Assembly: GCF_029855125.1 (NCBI RefSeq)
Contig: NZ_CP123229.1
Span: 3,268,501-3,332,500, forward strand
Length of the DNA: 64,000 bases
Direction: 5' to 3'
Source: Methylocapsa sp. D3K7
Lineage (GTDB): Bacteria; Pseudomonadota; Alphaproteobacteria; Rhizobiales; Beijerinckiaceae
A program made the translations under genes and the position numbers. How positions within the stretch are numbered: position 1 is the first letter of the stretch; each line of letters begins with the position of its first letter. Below are positions 43,546-54,961 of the stretch, piece by piece. The notes under the pieces are model-generated. The model was given only the letters and a program-made list of their open reading frames with translations. It searched no databases and was not told where the DNA came from.

Positions 43546-44516
<971 letters not shown>

Positions 44517-44520
<4 letters not shown>

Positions 44521-45815
44521 GCGATCTCCGAGGCGAGGCGCAGTCCCATGAATTGCCAGCGCTGGTGAGGATAAAAAAAGTTTCGATAGGTGGCACGCAC
44601 GTGCCCTTCCGGCGTCACGCAGGAGCCGCCGCGCAGGACATGCTGGCCGACCATGAACTTGCCATTGTATTCGCCCAGCGCCCCTGAAGGCGCGCGATAC
44701 CCAGGGTAGGGCAGATAGGCACTCCCCGTCCATTCCCAAACGTCGCCGAACATTTGCCTGGGCCGCGTGTCATTGCTTGCGGGAGCCGGCAGCGGCCGCA
44801 GCGCATTCGAAGCGAGCGTGTTGCCTGTCGCGGGCAAGCCCCGCACGGCCAGTTCCCACTCGAACTCGGTGGGCAGCCGGTGACCCGCCCAGCGGGCAAA
44901 GGCGTCGGCCTCGTAATAACTCACATGCGCAACGGGCGCGGCGCAATCGAGGGGACGCAAGCCTTCGAGCGACATGGCCAGCCACTCTCCGTCGCGCTCC
45001 TCCCAATAAAGGGGCGCCCGCCAGCCTTCCCGGTTGACGATTGTCCAGCCATCGGCAAGCCAGAGGGAAGCCGTGCGATAGCCGCCGTCCCCGATGAAGG
45101 CGAGCCATTCGGCGTTGGTAACGAGGCGGTCGGCGAGACGGTATGGATGGATCAGCTCGCCATGGCGCGGCGTTTCATTGTCCCACGCAAAACTTTCGCC
45201 GCCGTGGCCGATCTGATGGATGCCGCCCGTAAAGCCGATCCAGCGCAACGGCTCTGGCTCGCCGCGATCCTGGCGTGGACGCGGTGCAAGATAAGCCGGA
45301 CGCAACGGATTAGCGGCAAAGAGCGCAAGAACATCTGTGAGGAGCAACTCCTGATGCTGCTGCTCATGATTGATGCCAAGTTCGAGAAGACGCGCCAGTT
45401 CCGATCCGGCTTCAATGCCGCGTTCGACAAGCTTCTCGAGTCCTGCGTCGACATGGGCGCGATAAGCGAAAATCTGCTCGCAGCCCGGCCGTGTGAGAAG
45501 CCCGCGTTGTGGCCGCGGCTGGCGCGGGCCGTGCGTTTCATAATAGGAGTTGAAGCAAAAATTGAAGGCCGGATCGAAAATCTCATAGCCCTCAAGGTGC
45601 CTCGAAAGAATGAAGGTCTCGAAGAACCAAGTGGTGTGGGCGAGGTGCCACTTCGCCGGGCTGGCGTCATCCATGGCCTGGACGGTCATGTCCTCGGCAC
45701 TCAGAGGCTGTACAAGGCGCAAAGAAAGCTGACGGCTTTCGGAAAGCCGGGACCATATCGCACGGGTTTGGGGTAGCGGCAAAATCGACGAAGTGATCGC
45801 GGACGATTGCGCCAT
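44517..45815 (-). CDS. egtB: Ergothioneine biosynthesis sulfoxide synthase EgtB
   Basis: A non-haem iron enzyme that joins a thiol to hercynine and oxidises it to the sulfoxide. Of 432 residues, the N-terminal DinB-like half bears the iron-binding His residues in KWHLAHTTWFFE and NHEQQHQELL, the C-terminal half is an FGE-sulfatase fold (GHRLPTEFEWELAVRGLP, FGDVWEWTGSAYLPYPGY, VLRGGSCVTPEGHVR). The ATG at 45815 is chosen; one at 45866 is possible. egtA, egtC and egtE are not near. Confidence 0.94.
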
Positions 45816-46237
45816 AACTACCTCCCATGCCGCCAAGCGTCCCGACAGCAATTTTAGAATAAACAACTTTGGCGTGACTGGGTTAAAGCGCTTGGCTGTT
45901 GTTTCAATGCAGAAATGCTATGATGGGATAACTCGCGGCAAAACCGTGTCCATCGAAAGGACCAGTTGATAACGCGGGGAAGGCAATTGGGTTCCGCACC
46001 GCTTCAGCTGATGTATCTCCATAAATTTGATCAAATAACTGCTACAATCATGCCCAAACGTTCTACGTGAAACGTTTGGATACGATTGGCAGGTCTGAGA
46101 ACTCATAGCGTATGTCCAGTGGCACGCAGAACAGCAGAAAATCGGTAATTTTGGACAGCCGATAGCGCGCGGCTTGACAATTTGCCGTTGTCCTAATTCC
46201 GGTTGGGGTGCGCCGCGAAGAGCAAGCAGGAGACCCC
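45816..46237. other. Divergent control region egtB / phosphoketolase
   Basis: 422 bases between divergent genes. It contains palindrome 1 (46045-46089). TTGACA at 46174-46179 suggests a promoter for the phosphoketolase gene, but no good -10 lies at the right distance (TAATTC follows after 14 bases), so this is weak. No gene is apparent. Confidence 0.5.
46045..46089 (+). repeat. parS-like palindrome 1 (diverged copy)
   Basis: Inverted arms CCAAACGTT (46054-46062) and AACGTTTGG (46071-46079) surround a core related to parS; the right half ACGTGAAACG is intact, the left half is changed (CGTTCT). The whole 45 bases align without gaps to the element at 48632, same orientation, about four of five bases equal by eye. 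It lies 148 bases before the phosphoketolase start. Confidence 0.75.
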
Positions 46238-48601
46238 ATGCCAGAATCTCTGTCACCTGAACTCCTCGAGAAAATGCACGCCTATTGGCGCGCGGCAAAT
46301 TACATCTCGGTCGGGCAAATCTATCTGCAGGACAATCCGCTGCTCGAATCCCCGCTCAGGCATGAACATATCAAACCCCGTTTGCTGGGGCATTGGGGCA
46401 CCACGCCGGGGCTAAATTTTCTTTATGTGCATCTCAACCGGCTGATCAAAGACAACGATTTGAACATGATTTACGTCATCGGTCCCGGTCACGGCGGCCC
46501 AGGGATCGTGGCGCAGACATATCTTGAAGGAACCTACACGGAATTTTATCCGGCGATTGAGCGCAGCCGCAACGGTTTGCAGCGGCTCTTCCGGCAGTTC
46601 TCCTGGCCCTATGGAGTTCCAAGCCATGTATCGCCGGAAACACCCGGCTCCATCCATGAAGGAGGTGAGCTCGGTTATTCCTTGGCGCATGCCTATGGCG
46701 CGGCTTTCGACAATCCAGATCTGATCGTTGCCTGTGTTATCGGCGATGGCGAGGCGGAAACCGGGGCACTGGCGACCAGCTGGCACTCCAACAAATTTTT
46801 GAACCCCGCGCGCGATGGTGCTGTTCTTCCGATCCTTCATCTCAACGGGTTCAAGATTGCCAATCCCACCGTGCTGGCCCGCATCAGCCGGCAAGAACTC
46901 ACGGAACTCATGTGGGGCTACGGCTATGATCCCCATTTTGTCGAGGGCGACGAACCGATGGCCGTGCATCAGTCTCTCGCCGGGACGCTTGATCGTATTC
47001 TTGCGCGGGTCCACGAAATTCAGGCTAAGGCACGGTTGGATCCGGAGAGCGAAGACGTCGAGCGCCCGCGCTGGCCGATGATTGTGTTCCGCACGCCCAA
47101 GGGTTGGACCGGACCGAAATTCGTCGACGGCGAGCCCGTCGAAGGGACATGGCGCGCGCATCAAGTTCCGATCGCCAAGTTTACGAACCCGGAGCACATC
47201 AAGCTGCTCGAAGATTGGATGTTGAGCTACCGGCCGCGTGAACTCTTCGACGCGCATGGCAAATTGCGTGAGGACATTGCGGCGCTCGCACCAACGGGCC
47301 ATCGCCGCATGGGTTCGAACCCGCACGCCAATGGTGGCGAGTTGCTGCAGCCGCTTTCGATGCCCCACTTCCGCGATTATGCCGTGGTGGTGCCTCACCC
47401 CGGCTGTATCGAAATGGAGGCGACGCGGGTCCTCGGAAGCTATTTACGCGATGTGATGAAACTCAATCTCGACAAAAAGAATTTCCGGCTGTTCGGGCCG
47501 GACGAGACCGCGTCGAACCGCTTGAGCGCCGTCTTTGAAATTTCGGGCAAGGAATGGATGGCCGAGGTCGAAGCGGTCGATATTAATCTCAGCGTCAAAG
47601 GCCGCGTCATGGAGGTTTTGAGCGAGCATCTCTGCGAGGGCTGGCTCGAAGGCTATCTTCTCACCGGCCGCCACGGTCTGTTCTCCTGTTACGAGGCCTT
47701 CATCCACATCATCGACTCGATGTTCAATCAGCACGCCAAATGGTTGAAAACCACCCGCAAAATTCCATGGCGCAAGCCGATTGCGTCATTGAATTATTTG
47801 CTCACCTCGCATGTCTGGCGGCAAGATCACAATGGCTTTTCCCATCAGGATCCCGGCTTCATCGATCATATCGCGAATAAGAAAGCCGATGTCGTGCGCA
47901 TCTATCTGCCGCCCGACGCCAATTGCCTGTTGTCGGTCGCCGACCACTGTTTTCGTAGCCGCAACTACGTCAATTTGATTGTTGCGGGCAAACAACCGGC
48001 ATGGCAATGGCTCGACATCGAGTCGGCCGTTCAGCACTGCACGATCGGTGCGGGTGTCTGGCACTGGGCCAGCAACGATGACGGCGATCCCGACGTCGTC
48101 ATGGCCTGCGCGGGCGATGTTCCTACCCTCGAGACGCTGGCCGCCGTTACACTTTTACGCAGCTATGTGCCGGACATCCGCGTCCGGGTCGTCAATGTCG
48201 TGGATCTGATGGTCTTGCAGCCTCAATCCGAGCACCCGCATGGTTTGGAAGACCGGGATTTTAACGAGCTGTTCACAACCGGTAAGCCGGTGATCTTCGC
48301 TTACCATGGCTACCCGGCGATGATTCACAAGCTGACCTACCGGCGGCGCAATCATGACAATATTCATGTGCGCGGCTACAAAGAAGAGGGGACCACCACG
48401 ACTCCCTTCGATATGGTCGTCTTAAACAATCTCGATCGCTATCAGCTCGCACTGGATGCGATTCGGCGTATTCCAAGGCTCAGCGATCAGGTCGGGACGG
48501 CGGAGGCCCGGTATTGGGCAACGATGGAGCGGCATAAGCTCTATATCAGCGAGCATGGCGACGACATGCCGGAGGTTCGCGACTGGCGCTGGAACTTGTG
48601 A
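46238..48601 (+). CDS. xfp: Xylulose 5-phosphate/fructose 6-phosphate phosphoketolase
   Basis: A thiamine diphosphate enzyme splitting xylulose 5-phosphate or fructose 6-phosphate with phosphate to acetyl phosphate. The 787-residue protein is full length: [15 protein letters not shown] start ([15 protein letters not shown]), [12 protein letters not shown], the TPP motif [28 protein letters not shown]-like PKGWTGPKF, and HGYPAMIH near the C-terminus. ATG 46238 has GCAGGAGA upstream. No phosphotransacetylase or acetate kinase gene is adjacent, so use of acetyl phosphate depends on genes elsewhere. The gene is bracketed by parS-like palindromes. Confidence 0.95.
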
Positions 48602-48631
48602 GAACGCTCGGGTTTGTCCGAAACTGGCTTT

Positions 48632-48664
48632 CAATCGTACCAAAATGTTTCACGTGAAACGTTT
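48632..48664 (+). repeat. parS-like palindrome 2, left part (split by IS)
   Basis: Arm AATCGTACCAAAA (48633-48645) and core TGTTTCACGTGAAACG (48646-48661) lie 30 bases after the phosphoketolase stop. The core differs from the bacterial parS consensus TGTTTCACGTGAAACA at one base. The other arm is displaced to 51542-51551 by the insertion sequence. Confidence 0.85.
48657..48664 (+). repeat. Target-site duplication, left copy
   Basis: AAACGTTT adjoins the outer end of the left terminal repeat; the identical octamer adjoins the right one at 51534-51541. Eight bases is the size made by IS1595-family elements. Confidence 0.9.
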
Positions 48665-48689
48665 GGCGATTATGCACTTGACTGAACAA
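48665..48689 (+). repeat. Left terminal inverted repeat of the IS
   Basis: 25 bases beginning GGCGATTATGCACTTG, perfectly matched by the complement of 51509-51533. Confidence 0.92.
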
Positions 48690-48761
48690 GATAGCCAAGC
48701 TAGCGATTCGCGTGTCGCGTCCGATGATTCGGATGTGGCTGGCGCGCCCGCGAATATCCAA

Positions 48762-49535
48762 TCATTTGATAAACCCGAGGCGGCGGCACTCTGCTTCCGC
48801 ACCCACCAAGACGCGCTCGACTTCGCTCGCCATGGCGTTGAGGACTCTCGTCGCAGGATTGCCGCTCTGAGTCTCAATTCCCTCGATGCCTATATCGAAG
48901 GTGAATCTGCCATTTATGTAGGGATTAAGATCAGAGGCAACGATCGCCAATATCAATTCCTTTTTGTCCGGGTTCCAGCTCGATCCGGAGAGCCCGGTGC
49001 CGACGACGAAATTGTTAGGGAGACGGGCCGAAAATTTGGCCTCAGCCTTGGTAACGTTAAGCGGAACCAAGGCGCAATGTTTCTTGGTGTTACACAGCTT
49101 GTTCAAGGCCCAAAGGGTGTCATTTCCTCCTTTGTATGGCTTGAAGTTGACAAACAACGTCACGATTTCCGAGGGGATATCTTGGGCGACGTTCCGTCGT
49201 TTGAGATTGTTATCGAGCCCGGCAAGGTCGTCTGCAAACGGGAAAGCGGTCCTTTTGGGAGCGGTCTTTCCGCTGGCGAGAGCGGCAGCGTAACCCGATT
49301 GATCCAACACAGATCGCAAATTGATGGCAACGTCGAACAAGACGGATGGCAGAGTATTTGGGGGTTGTATCGAGAACTGAATTTTGTGGATATTCTGTCC
49401 AGGTTGAGACTCTTTATCGATAACGTAGGACCATGGCTTGCTATTGAGAAAATCTCCAACGATTGCTTTGAATTCGGTGATGTGTTGATGTGCGCGTCTG
49501 AGTGTCGCGCGAGGGCTATCGAAAACATCTGCCAT
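48762..49535 (-). CDS. IS passenger protein of an uncharacterised family
   Basis: A 257-residue protein. It begins DSPRATLRRAHQHITEFKAI and contains LFDVAINLRSVLDQSGYAAA, TAFPFADD and FKPYKGGNDTLWALNKLCNT followed by KKHCALVP. I recognise these blocks from a widespread family of hypothetical proteins; the helical NLRS(A/V)LD and KH features vaguely recall HEPN-like RNases, but no catalytic R-x4-6-H is evident, so I give no function. A plus-strand frame of 364 codons over the same DNA is its shadow. The ATG at 49535 overlaps head-on with that of a small plus-strand gene. Confidence 0.8.
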   Translation of the reverse strand: MADVFDSPRATLRRAHQHITEFKAIVGDFLNSKPWSYVIDKESQPGQNIHKIQFSIQPPNTLPSVLFDVAINLRSVLDQSGYAAALASGKTAPKRTAFPFADDLAGLDNNLKRRNVAQDIPSEIVTLFVNFKPYKGGNDTLWALNKLCNTKKHCALVPLNVTKAEAKFSARLPNNFVVGTGLSGSSWNPDKKELILAIVASDLNPYINGRFTFDIGIEGIETQSGNPATRVLNAMASEVERVLVGAEAECRRLGFIK

Positions 49536-49698
49536 GGTCGAAAAACCTGATCCAACAAAAGATCCTGAATTCCAGAAGGTGATCCGTCACTTTGTGACGA
49601 CGCCGCATAAGACCCACAAGCCGCTTGGAAAGCCTAAATCCAAAGCGACAGCCAGTCCGAAAAAGCGGGGACAGCCGAAGATATCTACTGAGGCTTAG
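49534..49698 (+). CDS. 54-residue passenger protein
   Basis: A small, highly charged protein starting MVEKPDPTKDPEFQKVIRHF, continuing with a Pro/Lys-rich stretch (TPHKTHKPLGKPKSKA) and ending KISTEA. The (D)P-x-DPEFQ(K/R)V plus HKPLGK pattern recurs in small hypothetical proteins of other bacteria, from memory. Its ATG (49534-49536) shares bases with the ATG of the opposing 257-residue gene (CCATGG). No good ribosome site is seen upstream, so leaderless translation is possible. Confidence 0.62.
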   Translation: MVEKPDPTKDPEFQKVIRHFVTTPHKTHKPLGKPKSKATASPKKRGQPKISTEA

Positions 49699-50392
49699 TC
49701 CCGACAAAAAGGACCGCGCTATCTTCGCTAATACCACCGTTTCCCGTCATCATGGCAGTCGGCGGAATGGCATTCTTTCCGAATGGAATGCCAGAAGATT
49801 GCAAAGCAGATTCAATCAAAGGAGCATCCTCGCTTTTGGAATTAGGAACAGATATCCCGAAATAAATTGCCCCAGATAGGGTTAGTGATTGAAACCCAAT
49901 TGTCCACTTAGCTTCGCTAAAAATATTTGCGATTTGAATAGCTAGATATAGTGATTCTGGGTCATTTGCCACGTGGGCAATTGTAGCTGTGCCAGTACGC
50001 TGAGATAAGCTTGCCAAAAGCATCTGATGTTGTGGTTGGGTTAGTACCCGCCATGCGAGCTTAGCTTTAAGGCGTTCGGTTTCGAGTTTGGCCTTTTCTG
50101 TTTCAAGTTCGAGAGTCTTTGCGCGCTCGTTCGCTAAGGAAGAAGCCTCTTGGGCTTGCCGTGCCGCAGCTTCGGCTTGCGATATTCGCTCGCGAGCGTC
50201 GGTCTTATAGCGTTCAAGTTGGCGATCCTTATTCTCCGACGAAATCGCAGAAAGTCTCCAAAGTGCTACACTGAAAAACAGTGCCGCTGCGACAGACGCA
50301 AGATACAGGACATTCGTCCAATTCAAGAGCCCCTCTACGGAGAACCCGAAAATGGTGCCCTCCTGGTTATTCATTGGCTTTTCCATTTTCAT
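49685..50392 (-). CDS. IS passenger protein with TM segment and coiled coil
   Basis: A 235-residue protein with one membrane helix (NVLYLASVAAALFFSVALW, about 27-45), a long coiled coil (about 55-115; Glu, Lys, Ala-rich heptads as in ELETEKAKLETERLKAKLAW) and a C-terminal globular domain (about 120-235) with TIAHVANDPESLYLAIQIAN and IYFGISVPNS. The function is unknown. Starts at 50392, 50386 or 50374 are possible. Its end overlaps the small plus-strand gene tail to tail. Confidence 0.75.
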   Translation of the reverse strand: MKMEKPMNNQEGTIFGFSVEGLLNWTNVLYLASVAAALFFSVALWRLSAISSENKDRQLERYKTDARERISQAEAAARQAQEASSLANERAKTLELETEKAKLETERLKAKLAWRVLTQPQHQMLLASLSQRTGTATIAHVANDPESLYLAIQIANIFSEAKWTIGFQSLTLSGAIYFGISVPNSKSEDAPLIESALQSSGIPFGKNAIPPTAMMTGNGGISEDSAVLFVGTKPQ

Positions 50393-50535
50393 GATGCTCA
50401 CGATTGTAGTTGTCGTGGCTTTCGGAATTTCTGATCAATGGCACAAGAATCATCGGCGCCATTGATCGTAAGGGTAGATGCCGTCATTTGTTCATCATTT
50501 TCCGACGCCATCTATTGAAATATTTGGCCTGCTGT

Positions 50536-51471
50536 TTAAACGGTCGTGGCTTCACGAGGTATGCGATACGTGAGACGCTTGCCCTCGATACCCTTGAGGG
50601 CTTTCGCCGCACGTTCTCCATCCTCGACGCCTAAAGCTGTACGATTGTTGTAGCGAAAATCAAATTCGCTTAAATAGCGATGCAAATGCTTCTCTGAGCA
50701 GTGTTGATAAACGCCTTTCATGCCGCGTTTGAAGACGCTGAAATAGCCTTCAACGGTGTTCGTGCTGATGATGCGATCGCTCTCGTAGCGCACATATTCA
50801 TCAGCTTTATGCTGGACAGTTTCATGGCTCGCGAAGTCAGAGCCAAGGCGGCTATAGTGACCGCCTTCGTCGGTCATCATTGCAGTTTCGCGTGCTACAT
50901 TCTTGCGGATGATCGGCATGACATCGGCGGCGCTGGTTCCATCGACATGAAAGGAGCGAACTTGCCCGCCACGCTCGACAAGAGACAGCACCGCGTTTTT
51001 GTGCCCATGGCCGCGACGTTTTGTAGAGCCTTCTTTCTTTCCGATAAAGGTTTCGTCAGCCTCCACAATGCCGCCAGCGCCGCCCATAGGCGCAAGACCG
51101 CCAGCGCGCATACCTTCGCGGATGCGCATTGCCATAAACCATGCTGTTTTGTAGGAGCCAAAGCCCATCATGCGGAACAATTGATGCGCGCTCATGCCCT
51201 TTTTGCTGGAAGTCAAAAGATGCGTGGCCAAAAGCCATTTGTGCAACGGAATGTGCGAACGCTCGTAAAGGGTTCCGGTGCGAACGGTGAACTTCTCGCG
51301 GCATTGGCGGCAGTGATACCAACCCGGCCCCATGGACTTGCCGCCAAGTTTGCTAACCGTCTCAGACAGGCCGCAATGAGGGCAAGTCGCGCCATTCGGC
51401 CAGCGGGAAGCCTCTATCACTTCGCGGGCTTTGTCTTCGTCAGTGAAAGCTGGATTGGTAAGATCGCACAT
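50536..51471 (-). CDS. IS1595-family transposase (ISXO2-like)
   Basis: A 311-residue DDE transposase. An N-terminal Zn ribbon has Cys30/Cys33 (CPHC) and Cys54/Cys57 (CRQC); catalytic acids are D139 in IVEADETFIGKK, D201 in MTDEGGHY and E241 in NTVEGYFSVFKRG; the family pattern continues HLHRYLSEFDFRYNNR. All three acids are present and the frame is unbroken, so the enzyme should be active. It lies near the right terminal repeat. Confidence 0.96.
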   Translation of the reverse strand: MCDLTNPAFTDEDKAREVIEASRWPNGATCPHCGLSETVSKLGGKSMGPGWYHCRQCREKFTVRTGTLYERSHIPLHKWLLATHLLTSSKKGMSAHQLFRMMGFGSYKTAWFMAMRIREGMRAGGLAPMGGAGGIVEADETFIGKKEGSTKRRGHGHKNAVLSLVERGGQVRSFHVDGTSAADVMPIIRKNVARETAMMTDEGGHYSRLGSDFASHETVQHKADEYVRYESDRIISTNTVEGYFSVFKRGMKGVYQHCSEKHLHRYLSEFDFRYNNRTALGVEDGERAAKALKGIEGKRLTYRIPREATTV

Positions 51472-51508
51472 GGTCAGCTCCTATGACGCTAACTCTGTCA
51501 CAAGAGCT

Positions 51509-51533
51509 TTGTTCAGTCAAGTGCATAATCGCC
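51509..51533 (-). repeat. Right terminal inverted repeat of the IS
   Basis: Perfect 25-base complement of the left end; its outer end is the complement of GGCGATTATGC. The transposase start lies 38 bases inside. Confidence 0.92.
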
Positions 51534-51551
51534 AAACGTTTTGGTACGATT
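51534..51551 (+). repeat. Target duplication and right arm of palindrome 2
   Basis: AAACGTTT (51534-51541) repeats the octamer at 48657; the following TGGTACGATT completes the right arm TTTTGGTACGATT when one copy of the duplication is removed. Confidence 0.88.
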
Positions 51552-51736
51552 AGGGAGAAAAAACGGTGCAAGGCCTCATACCTCTGACGGGCTTTACGCG
51601 AGTCGGATTCCACGGAAATTTGGTCTTTTGTGCGGGTTTGTGGCGATCCTCTACGCGGAAGCCTCTCCGCTATTCCTCAAGATAATTTATAGGATTAAGT
51701 TAGGGATCCCGTGATTCGCGGGGCGGGACTTTTTCC

Positions 51737-54700
51737 ATGAAAGACTTTTTTGAGAGTTATTTGCGCCTCCTGCGCCAAGACCGCGACGACAAAACCGAGC
51801 ACTCGGATCGCGGCGCGCTTTTAACCCTCTTGAACGCGGCGGCTCATGCGGCCGACTCGGGCATCCGAATTATTCACGAGGCGAAAAAGGTGCACGGCTC
51901 TGGTGCGCCTGATTTCAAGGTGATGAAGGCGGCGATGATCCTCGGCTATGTCGAGAACAAGACCGTCGGCGAAAACCTTGATCAAATTCTCAAGTCGGAT
52001 CAGATCAAGCGCTACAAAGCGCTGTCGAAAAACATCCTTCTGACGGATTACCTGCAGTTCATCTGGATCAAGGACGGAAAGGTCAACGCCCGCGACATCA
52101 TCGCCTTCCAGGACGATCTCGAAGGCAGGCCAAAAAAGCCGCGCGAGGAGCGCGTCAAGGCGGTTCCCGACTTGTTACGCGGCTTCTTCTCCATCGCGCC
52201 GGAAGGCATCGGACGCGCGCAGCAGCTTGCGTTGGCCCTCGCCACGCGCAGCCAGTTTCTGCGCGACTTTCTCGACCTTGAATTGCGGCGCCAGGAAAAG
52301 GAGCACCGGGAAGGGCGCCTTTATGGCCTCTATCAGATTTTCCGCGATCAGGTTTTTCATGAACTCGCGCTTGGCGAGTTTGCCGACGCCTTCGCGCAAA
52401 TGCTCGCCTATGGACTTTTTCTCGCGAAGCTCAATTCCAACGGCGAAGTGATCACGCTCGTCAATGCCCGCCAGTTCGTGCCGGGTTCGTTCCGCCTCAT
52501 CCGCGAGCTGGTGCAATTTCTCGACGATCTTAGCGCGCCGGAGTACACCGAAATTCGCTGGGTGGTCGAGGAACTCCTGTCCATCGTGAACGGGCTAGAC
52601 CTGCACGCGATCCGTGAAGACCTCTCGTTCAAGCACCGCAAGGCGATCAGCCGCAAGGTGAGGGCGCAAGACGAGGAAGAGCATCGGCTCTTCGAGCGTG
52701 ATCCATTCATCTACTTCTACGAGGATTTCCTCGCAAAATATGATGCGAAAATGAAAAAGGCGCGCGGTGTCTATTACACGCCGCCTCCCATCGTGAATTT
52801 CATCGTGCGCGCGGTTGACGACATTTTGAAAGACACCTTCGGCATCGCGCAAGGCCTCGCGGACCACAAGCGTGTCACCGTGCTCGATTTCGCCTGCGGT
52901 ACCGGCACGTTCATTCTCGAAGTGCTCGAACGCATTTTTGAAAATATTGGCGGCGCGGATTCAGCCAAAGCGGGCCTCGTCGTGCGTGAGCATATGCTGA
53001 AGAACGTGTTCGGCTTCGAATATCTCATCGCGCCTTACACGATCGCACATCTAAAACTCTCGCAATATCTCGCCGACAAGGGCCATGCCTTGGCGGATGG
53101 TGAGCGGTTGCAGGTATTTCTGACCAACACGCTTGAGCCAATGGAGGCGCAGAGAAATTTGCTCCTACCCGCGCTTTCAGAGGAATCTGCAAATGCACAA
53201 CGCGTCAAGGAAAAGCCCATTCTGGTTATTACCGGGAACCCTCCTTATTCCGGTCATTCCAAGAACAAGGGGGCGTGGATAACGGCATCGATTGAGGAAT
53301 ACAGGAAGGGCTTTCCAGAGCTATCGAAGCCCGGACAAGGAAAGTGGCTACAGGACGATTACGTGAAATTCATTCGCTTCGCGCAAATGAAAATGGACGG
53401 TGGAATATTCAAGGTTGAAGATAAAAATGGCCAATTACGCGAAGTCCATGTCGAAGGTGTCGAAGAAGGTGTCGTCGGCATTATCACTAACCATTCATGG
53501 CTCGATAACCCGACTTTTCGCGGTATGCGCAAGTCGCTGATGAATTCATTTAATCAGATTTATGTCCTCGATTTGCATGGCAACGCAAAAAAGAAAGAGC
53601 GCGCGCCAGATGGCGGTGATGACAAGAATGTTTTCGATATCGAGCAAGGCGTCGCGATCAGTCTATTTGTAAAAAAGAAAGGGCTGGAGCTCGGCATTTC
53701 CCATGCCGACCTGTGGGGGAGCAGATTATCCAAATATGAGACTGTGGCGGAATCAACTAAGGACGACGTCGAGTGGCAATTTTTTCAACCTGCCGCGCCA
53801 GACTTTCTGTTTGTCCCGCAGGATAATGCCCTCGCGACCAAGTACCAGATGCTTTGGTCGGTACCGCAAATTTTTGCGCTAAACGGGGATCCGGCACCTT
53901 GCCTGGTCACAACCCACGATCAATTTGCGATTTCTTTCTCGCCAAACGAATCTATCTCGAAAGTCCAGGCTCTTTTATCCACAAATGATGAGAGCGAGGC
54001 TCGCAGGCTGTTCCGGCTTTGCTCGCAAGGCCAGTGGGACTACCAACAGGCGAAAGCAGCGCTTGCTGTTCTGAATTTACCCAAATTAACGGCTACGATC
54101 ACATACCGGCCGTTTGATAAGCGTTGGACGATTTGGAACTCTCACGTTGCTGTGCATAGGCGCGAACGCGTTATGCACCATATGATGCACAATAATATTG
54201 GTCTCCTTACATGCCGACAAATTGCTTCAGGGCATTGGGAGCATGTATTTGCAGCCGGTTGTGCCGCAGATGATTGCGTTATTTCTAACCGTACAAAAGA
54301 ACGGGGTTACCTGTTCCCGCTGTACCTCTATCATCCGCCGGAAGGCTCGCGCCGCGCGAAAGCAGATCTCTCCAGAATCACCGAATCTCTCGTCGGCAAA
54401 TCCCGCATCGAAAACATCGCGCCTGCCTTCCGCAAATGGCTCGATGAAAAATATGAACTCCATTTCTCGCCAGAGGAATTGTTCGGCTACATCTACGCCA
54501 TTCTCCACGCGCCGACATACCGCACCAAATACGTTGAGTTCCTGCGCAATGACTTTCCGCGCGTGCCATTTCCCGAATCGGCCGACGATTTCGAAACCTT
54601 GTCGGTTTTAGGTTGGGCGCTGGTGCAAGCGCATCTGTTGCGCGATTCTCCGCGACGAGGATTGGCCTCCTATCATGGCAAGGGCGGCCACACGGTCGAA

Positions 54701-54961
54701 GCCGTGCGCTATTCGCCAGAGCAACAGGCGATCGCGATCAACAAGACCCAGTTTTTCAAGCCGGTGCCACAAGCCGTGTGGGATTTCCACATCGGCGGTT
54801 ATCAGGTGCTCGACAAATATCTGAAGTCGCGCAGGGGCCGCACGCTCTCGCTTGACGAAATCAATCATGTGTCCGCTATCGCCGACAGCCTCGTCTTCAC
54901 TATTGAGCAGATGGCGAGGATCGACGAAGCTTATCTCGCCGCCTTTCCTGATCGGGGATAA
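51737..54961 (+). CDS. Single-chain restriction-modification enzyme (type IIG / ISP-like N6-adenine methylase)
   Basis: A 1074-residue fusion enzyme. Residues 58-75 have a PD-(D/E)xK nuclease signature (P58-D59, E73 and K75 in YVENK). The central gamma-class adenine methyltransferase shows motif X (YYTPPPIVNFIVRAV, about 345), motif I VLDFACGTGTFILEV (about 382) and motif IV NPPY (about 501). The last 350 residues resemble the specificity domain of type ISP enzymes (ELFGYIYAILHAPTYRTKY, FPRVPFPESADDF). There is no helicase, unlike true ISP enzymes, so it should cut and methylate alone. No separate methylase or specificity gene is adjacent. It lies 200 bases beyond the IS. Confidence 0.88.
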   Translation: MKDFFESYLRLLRQDRDDKTEHSDRGALLTLLNAAAHAADSGIRIIHEAKKVHGSGAPDFKVMKAAMILGYVENKTVGENLDQILKSDQIKRYKALSKNILLTDYLQFIWIKDGKVNARDIIAFQDDLEGRPKKPREERVKAVPDLLRGFFSIAPEGIGRAQQLALALATRSQFLRDFLDLELRRQEKEHREGRLYGLYQIFRDQVFHELALGEFADAFAQMLAYGLFLAKLNSNGEVITLVNARQFVPGSFRLIRELVQFLDDLSAPEYTEIRWVVEELLSIVNGLDLHAIREDLSFKHRKAISRKVRAQDEEEHRLFERDPFIYFYEDFLAKYDAKMKKARGVYYTPPPIVNFIVRAVDDILKDTFGIAQGLADHKRVTVLDFACGTGTFILEVLERIFENIGGADSAKAGLVVREHMLKNVFGFEYLIAPYTIAHLKLSQYLADKGHALADGERLQVFLTNTLEPMEAQRNLLLPALSEESANAQRVKEKPILVITGNPPYSGHSKNKGAWITASIEEYRKGFPELSKPGQGKWLQDDYVKFIRFAQMKMDGGIFKVEDKNGQLREVHVEGVEEGVVGIITNHSWLDNPTFRGMRKSLMNSFNQIYVLDLHGNAKKKERAPDGGDDKNVFDIEQGVAISLFVKKKGLELGISHADLWGSRLSKYETVAESTKDDVEWQFFQPAAPDFLFVPQDNALATKYQMLWSVPQIFALNGDPAPCLVTTHDQFAISFSPNESISKVQALLSTNDESEARRLFRLCSQGQWDYQQAKAALAVLNLPKLTATITYRPFDKRWTIWNSHVAVHRRERVMHHMMHNNIGLLTCRQIASGHWEHVFAAGCAADDCVISNRTKERGYLFPLYLYHPPEGSRRAKADLSRITESLVGKSRIENIAPAFRKWLDEKYELHFSPEELFGYIYAILHAPTYRTKYVEFLRNDFPRVPFPESADDFETLSVLGWALVQAHLLRDSPRRGLASYHGKGGHTVEAVRYSPEQQAIAINKTQFFKPVPQAVWDFHIGGYQVLDKYLKSRRGRTLSLDEINHVSAIADSLVFTIEQMARIDEAYLAAFPDRG

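Follow-up and report, generated by a model that had tools for sequence, protein, structure and literature searches.

Dispersed parS-centred palindromic elements on the Methylocapsa sp. D3K7 chromosome: candidate composite ParB-loading sites

The window analyzed here, 64,000 nucleotides of Methylocapsa sp. D3K7 (contig NZ_CP123229.1, positions 3,268,501 to 3,332,500), lies inside a genome that consists of a single contig of 4,151,390 bases. It contains the phosphoketolase gene xfp bracketed by two palindromic elements with a parS-like core, one degenerate and the other split by an insertion sequence (IS) of the IS1595 family (Table 1). This arrangement had been described in an earlier note made from the sequence of the window alone, and it is confirmed, with AAACGTTT duplications and terminal repeats at the insertion. 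Joining the flanks of the IS (48665–51533) together with one copy of the duplication restores the proposed 42-bp palindrome with one mismatched pair of 21. The insert belongs to the IS1595 family by its DDE_Tnp_IS1595 transposase, terminal repeats and 8-bp duplication. The left part of the split element scores with the sequence-only profile R1 at genome positions 3317131–3317164 (E 8e-11) and the right remnant at 3320034–3320053 (E about 0.02). The copy on the other side of xfp is matched by the same profile at genome 3314545–3314590 (E about 2e-5); it has 5 mismatched pairs of 22 and two changes within the 14-bp core. The diverged copy seen there by the earlier note is real; its supposed same orientation has little meaning in a palindrome.

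From the window alone the likeness to parS is suggestive only: one match with up to 3 mismatches is found versus 0.17 expected, and this is reached by 16 of 100 shuffles. Its identity is settled by the genome-wide search that the note had called for, since the counts far exceed those of reversed controls. The 14-mer GTTTCACGTGAAAC occurs 61 times exactly, and 62 times with up to one mismatch versus 1 for the reversed control. Inspection of all 61 exact sites places two at the par locus, 3.5 and 3.8 kb from parB, so that the core, previously called parS-like, is the organism's own parS, and the remaining 59 are dispersed. The palindrome beside xfp is one of these 59, a scale that the earlier note missed. 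Among the 57 dispersed sites that are uninterrupted (the two others are cut by IS), 56 fit a 38-bp pattern of core with arms within 3 mismatches and one fits it with 4; genome-wide this armed form is found 57 times at up to 3 mismatches versus 0 for the reversed control. R1 also detects several degenerate or IS-split copies, including that at 46045. Within a sample of 397 genomes from the order, containing the present one and none other of its genus, the exact 14-mer occurs 0 to 5 times in each of the 396 others. An exact search for the armed pattern in viral contigs gave nothing.

Each half of the element is built, from the centre outward, of GTGAAAC, a free 2-bp spacer and an arm. The arm is TTTGGTACGAT in 76 of the 114 halves of the 57 uninterrupted dispersed sites (the two par-locus and two IS-split sites are excluded from this tally), and its variants include TTTTGTCCGAT (13 halves) and TTTGGTAAGGT (6 halves). 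Beyond the arms lie diverged outer modules, the commonest of which is designated the A half. Within 416 kb of this genome, selected around elements, the A half has 38 matches at E below 0.01, found only beside palindromes (35 halves had trained the profile), and two further weak matches (E 0.25) are likewise situated beside elements. The earlier note's suspicion that arms this long point beyond an ordinary parS site was correct. The two arms of a site vary independently, with 90.0% of cells paired versus 90.1% after shuffling, and the compensatory changes of a hairpin, as in REP and ERIC repeats, are not observed. This fits half-sites of a DNA-protein complex and does not fit an RNA hairpin. 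As in REP and ERIC repeats, the location is extragenic: 53 of 56 sites lie outside heuristic open reading frame calls and three lie inside one, and the gene boundary closest to the site is a 3' end in 41 of 56 cases, compared to 1934 of 4000 random intergenic points (p 2e-4).

The dispersed sites are distributed around the whole circle, also opposite parB, from which the position of the origin was taken; the origin-proximal location of parS is not seen here. The position statistics comprise 57 positions, namely 56 dispersed sites and the degenerate 46045 copy, with three sites omitted, each more than 1.2 Mb from parB. Their spacing is near random, with p 0.16 for the largest gap and p 0.38 for the variation in spacing. 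A KOPS-like polarity was rejected because, with the origin assumed at parB, 19 outer modules point toward ori and 19 toward ter. The element pair 1318452/1319379 and the triplet 3223409/3224387/3226052 each include one degenerate member, which suggests local duplication.

Among the genomes searched, the armed element occurs only within the genus. In 99 genomes, including the present one (G000), an armed 30-mer with up to 2 mismatches is present in six, all among the 15 genomes of the genus: 58 copies in G000, 32 in G006, 24 in G003, 22 in G005, 11 in G010 and 3 in G012. Matches to R1 on both strands number at least 36 to 146 in those six. The nine others, which are without the network (decayed in G011), have at least 0 to 11. 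With relatedness taken as ParB identity to G000, the values are 80% for G006, 70% for G010, 73–77% for the pieces in G003 and G005, and 60–65% for the nine genomes without the network; no ParB was found for this comparison in G012.

Several sites occupy orthologous places across members of the genus. Eighteen ortholog pairs were entered with a core within one mismatch demanded, and seven failed the flank filter. The 11 remaining ortholog-anchored one-sided comparisons give identities of 154/154 for the core, 124/132 for the arms, 14/22 for the spacer, 256/352 for the next 32 bp and 6789/8404 (81%) beyond 250 bp, figures that are biased upwards because the sites in relatives, nrdJ excepted, had been located through their core and arms, and because of the demand on the core. 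The fair case of conservation is nrdJ, most other sites in relatives having been found by motif. Its three comparisons were located by the gene, and they show 42/42 identical core and 35/36 identical arm positions. Downstream of nrdJ in 14 genomes, the core is intact in G000, G003, G005 and G006, the element of G011 is decayed with three core changes, and no core-like match is present in G010, nor, with up to 2 mismatches allowed, in 8 further genomes. G011, the out-group without an intact network, has another decayed copy at the ddl position (loci L242 and L235 for the two copies). The element therefore either arose before G011 diverged or entered both lineages, and it decayed in G011. In G001 (L226), one of those eight genomes, the region downstream of nrdJ contains an inverted repeat TTTGTCCGATTT...AAATCGGACAA that lacks a parS core and is similar to the outer arms.

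The genome encodes one full ParB of 300 aa, beside a frame which by eye resembles ParA. In an alignment made by eye to the published numbering it keeps the equivalents of R173 and G201, residues called absolutely conserved in ParB (PMC7383237). By its sequence, this protein would be a cognate ParB specific to parS. PF02195 has three other matches in the genome: two of them start frames that by eye resemble DNA methyltransferases, and one is a fragment adjoining such frames. These ParB_N frames (L068, L069 and L070, one of them broken; L068 and L069 near recombinase-like frames) are probably of mobile or prophage origin. A loss of SMC as the reason why dispersed parS is tolerated was rejected, because SMC is matched in all 15 genomes of the genus; the match exceeds the cut-off in 14 of them, and in G005 the gene is in pieces.

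The dispersed elements are tied to the centromere of the lineage itself by an accessory box, TTTAGAA-N3-TTCTAAAA, which is common to par-locus parS and to dispersed sites of one species. It abuts all five par-locus parS of G000 (two), G006 (one) and G010 (two), agreeing at 14 of 15 positions, and the six par-locus parS of G008, G009 and G011 score at most 6/15. About 64 places are matched in G012, of which 32, mostly the best-scoring ones, were examined; the box abuts 31 of these 32 dispersed sites at 12/15 or more (L234–L251, L269–L291), and the arm opposite the box is mostly of TTTGGTCCGAT or TTTTGTCCGGT type. Random positions, 5000 in number, score at most 10/15, a value reached by 5 of them. 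The box resembles the Irr iron-control box. In G010 (L255) the two par-locus parS at 2042918 and 2042955 flank a single TTTAGAATTATTCCAAAA box.

We interpret the palindromes as chromosome-wide composite ParB-loading sites with a partner protein bound to the arms, and we assign this reading a probability of roughly 0.6. ParB would load at each core, and a second, hypothetical DNA-binding protein would occupy the arms, which read TTTGGTACGAT or a variant of it and, at the par locus and in one species, TTTAGAA-N3-TTCTAAAA. This partner might position ParB or keep it confined. Such a network of sites may serve organisation or segregation of the chromosome far from the origin. A bolder version, tentative and somewhat short of even odds in our judgement, is that of a many-centred chromosome: one lineage in the genus would have spread about 60 ParB-loading centromere sites and added the accessory box to its par-locus parS, and ParB would work along the whole chromosome, beyond the origin. 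By the usual view parS is a mark near the origin, through which the origin becomes the pulled site and a place of SMC loading. About 60 intact parS cores around the circle, together with the usual ParB residues and SMC, break this rule and offer a natural experiment on how one direction of segregation and folding is kept and on the role of an arm-bound partner. As the network is found in some members of the genus and is decayed in a near relative, the gene for the partner should be findable by comparison.

Among known systems, ParABS has the same 14-bp core, and the organism has parB, a parA-like frame and two par-locus parS with identical core; the usual ParABS has few sites near the origin, whereas here about 60 are spread around the whole chromosome, with long arms and outer modules and mostly nearest to 3' ends. 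The Noc/NBS system of Bacillus is alike in having palindromic sites of a ParB-family protein away from the origin, but here the core is parS and not NBS, the arms are extra and sites occur also opposite parB. Moreover, no Noc-like paralog is detected with PF02195, as the other three matches are a fragment and ParB_N portions within longer frames. The nearest parallel that we found is SegB of the archaeal Sulfolobales, for which tens of palindromic partition-protein sites are described; they are scattered on the chromosome, with 39 peaks in one species, and are linked to its folding (PMC12284271). SegB is a different protein, its sites are mostly intragenic, and no such arms are mentioned in the part consulted (PMC12284271). 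In Pseudomonas aeruginosa, ParB is described as acting genome-wide past the origin cluster at hundreds of 7-bp half-parS sites (PMC7022226); here, in contrast, full 14-bp palindromes reside in conserved composite elements. No earlier report of chromosome-wide parS was recognised in the open-access literature, judged by titles and abstract openings. The 14-mer string itself appears in 16 papers there.

Several observations weigh against ParB loading at these sites. Binding of ParB in the cell is inferred, and the partner of the arms is hypothetical. Chromosomal parS elsewhere lie mostly within the origin domain (PMC7022226). The origin region is, if anything, avoided by the dispersed sites, the nearest of which is 140 kb from parB (p 0.017). 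Dispersed sites lack the accessory box in G000 and in the samples from G003, G005, G006 and G010, where the best scores are 4–9/15. The conservation figures, the nrdJ comparisons excepted, carry the upward bias mentioned above. G003 has 24 sites by count; among the 20 that were listed, 4 have a substituted core with the arms kept, so an unchanged core is not required at every site. Finally, the preference for 3' ends suits a passive intergenic repeat as well.

Such a repeat family, passive or formerly mobile, which acquired parS and carries it unused, the core mattering little, is the main rival, although we consider it unlikely. Repeats of the REP/BIME and ERIC types are extragenic dispersed palindromes favouring the 3' sides of genes, and the present elements share this dispersal and preference. 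The modular structure with an outer module only beside palindromes in the 416 kb, copy numbers varying widely among related species, a patchy occurrence at individual loci such as nrdJ, and the G003 substitutions would all be natural for a repeat. Unlike REP/BIME and ERIC, however, the elements have no covarying hairpin, possess an exact parS centre and hold some positions in common between species. Within the genome the outer parts differ strongly while the core is invariant (61 exact copies versus one with a mismatch). At the orthologous places sampled no core base has changed, while identity farther out than 250 bp is 81%, and G011 displays what decaying copies look like. The earlier note had regarded many random genome-wide copies as evidence against its proposal; the copies are indeed numerous, but they are not random, because nearly all are intergenic, and they are conserved and partly orthologous.

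Still less probable is that the elements are bound by some other protein, a Noc-like or Fur/Irr-like factor of the nucleoid or of regulation, with the likeness to parS being secondary. The arms retained at the G003 sites with changed core would agree with it, as would the resemblance of the accessory box to the Irr box and the action of Noc, a ParB relative, away from the origin. This reading is opposed by the core being identical to the organism's own parS, by a single full ParB among the four PF02195 matches, and by most sites being nearest to a 3' end rather than to a start. An element acting at the RNA level, a terminator or a hairpin of the 3' untranslated region, is very improbable: a 20-bp stem could form and the sites are placed after stop codons, but the arms do not covary, a regular U-run after the stem was not seen by eye, and Rfam gives zero matches across 13 element loci (within the window, just a distant tRNA).

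The idea that the palindromes are recombination sites that imported xfp stems from the two copies bracketing this gene and is practically negligible, as 59 dispersed sites are found at many other genes, no integrase was found among eight nearby frames scanned, and in G010 an intact element (L083), 0.4 kb away from where the aligned egtD–egtB block ends and near the place of the 46045 copy, lies in a 6-kb stretch that holds no xfp. The dispersed sites and the G010 element make the flanking of xfp look incidental.

The elements appear to be a preferred landing place of IS1595-type insertions. Three of the four PF12762 matches in the genome lie inside elements: window 48633–51551, genome 3379710–3382309 (L058) and genome 935999–938261 (L217); the fourth, at 591.9 kb, has no element nearby by model R1. 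Two of the three share the insertion phase, with duplications AAACGTTT and AAACATTT. At the third, the two flanks stop at mirror-image positions, their 8-mers AATTGTTT and AAACGTTT are unequal, and the core is lost. The terminal repeats differ among the three loci. The 8-mer AAAC[AG]TTT occurs 75 times in elements and 22 times elsewhere in the 416 kb chosen around elements, which extrapolates to about 220 occurrences elsewhere in the genome, and an insertion preference for this 8-mer alone could account for part of the targeting.

Table 1. Palindromic elements, insertion sequence and adjoining features around xfp (window coordinates).
Feature	Position	Strand	Details
Degenerate element copy	46045..46088		44-bp imperfect palindrome, core GTTCTACGTGAAAC
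xfp, phosphoketolase (neighbour only)	46208..48601	+	gene end 45 nt before core
IS-split element, left part	48633..48664		arm AATCGTACCAAA, spacer, parS core GTTTCACGTGAAAC at 48647–48660, remainder of first target duplication
Target duplication, copy 1	48657..48664		8 bp, AAACGTTT
IS1595-family insertion sequence	48665..51533	-	2,869 bp; terminal inverted repeats GGCGATTATGCACTTGACTGAACAA, transposase and two further reading frames
IS1595-type transposase	50536..51471	-	PF12762 and PF12760; one of four PF12762 matches genome-wide
Target duplication, copy 2, and remaining right arm	51534..51551		AAACGTTT (51534–51541); arm TGGTACGATT
Outer module (A half) resuming right of IS	51558..51638	+	nhmmer E 8e-9

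The inner frames of the IS, 48679–49550 (+) and 49685–50401 (-), have no Pfam match and are perhaps passenger genes. Beside xfp, at window 43546–45866, a histidine-specific methyltransferase (PF10017) and an FGE-sulfatase/DinB_2 protein are encoded, probably EgtD and EgtB of ergothioneine synthesis. Directly after the split element, window 51737–54961 encodes a Type ISP restriction-methylation protein, 1,074 aa in length.

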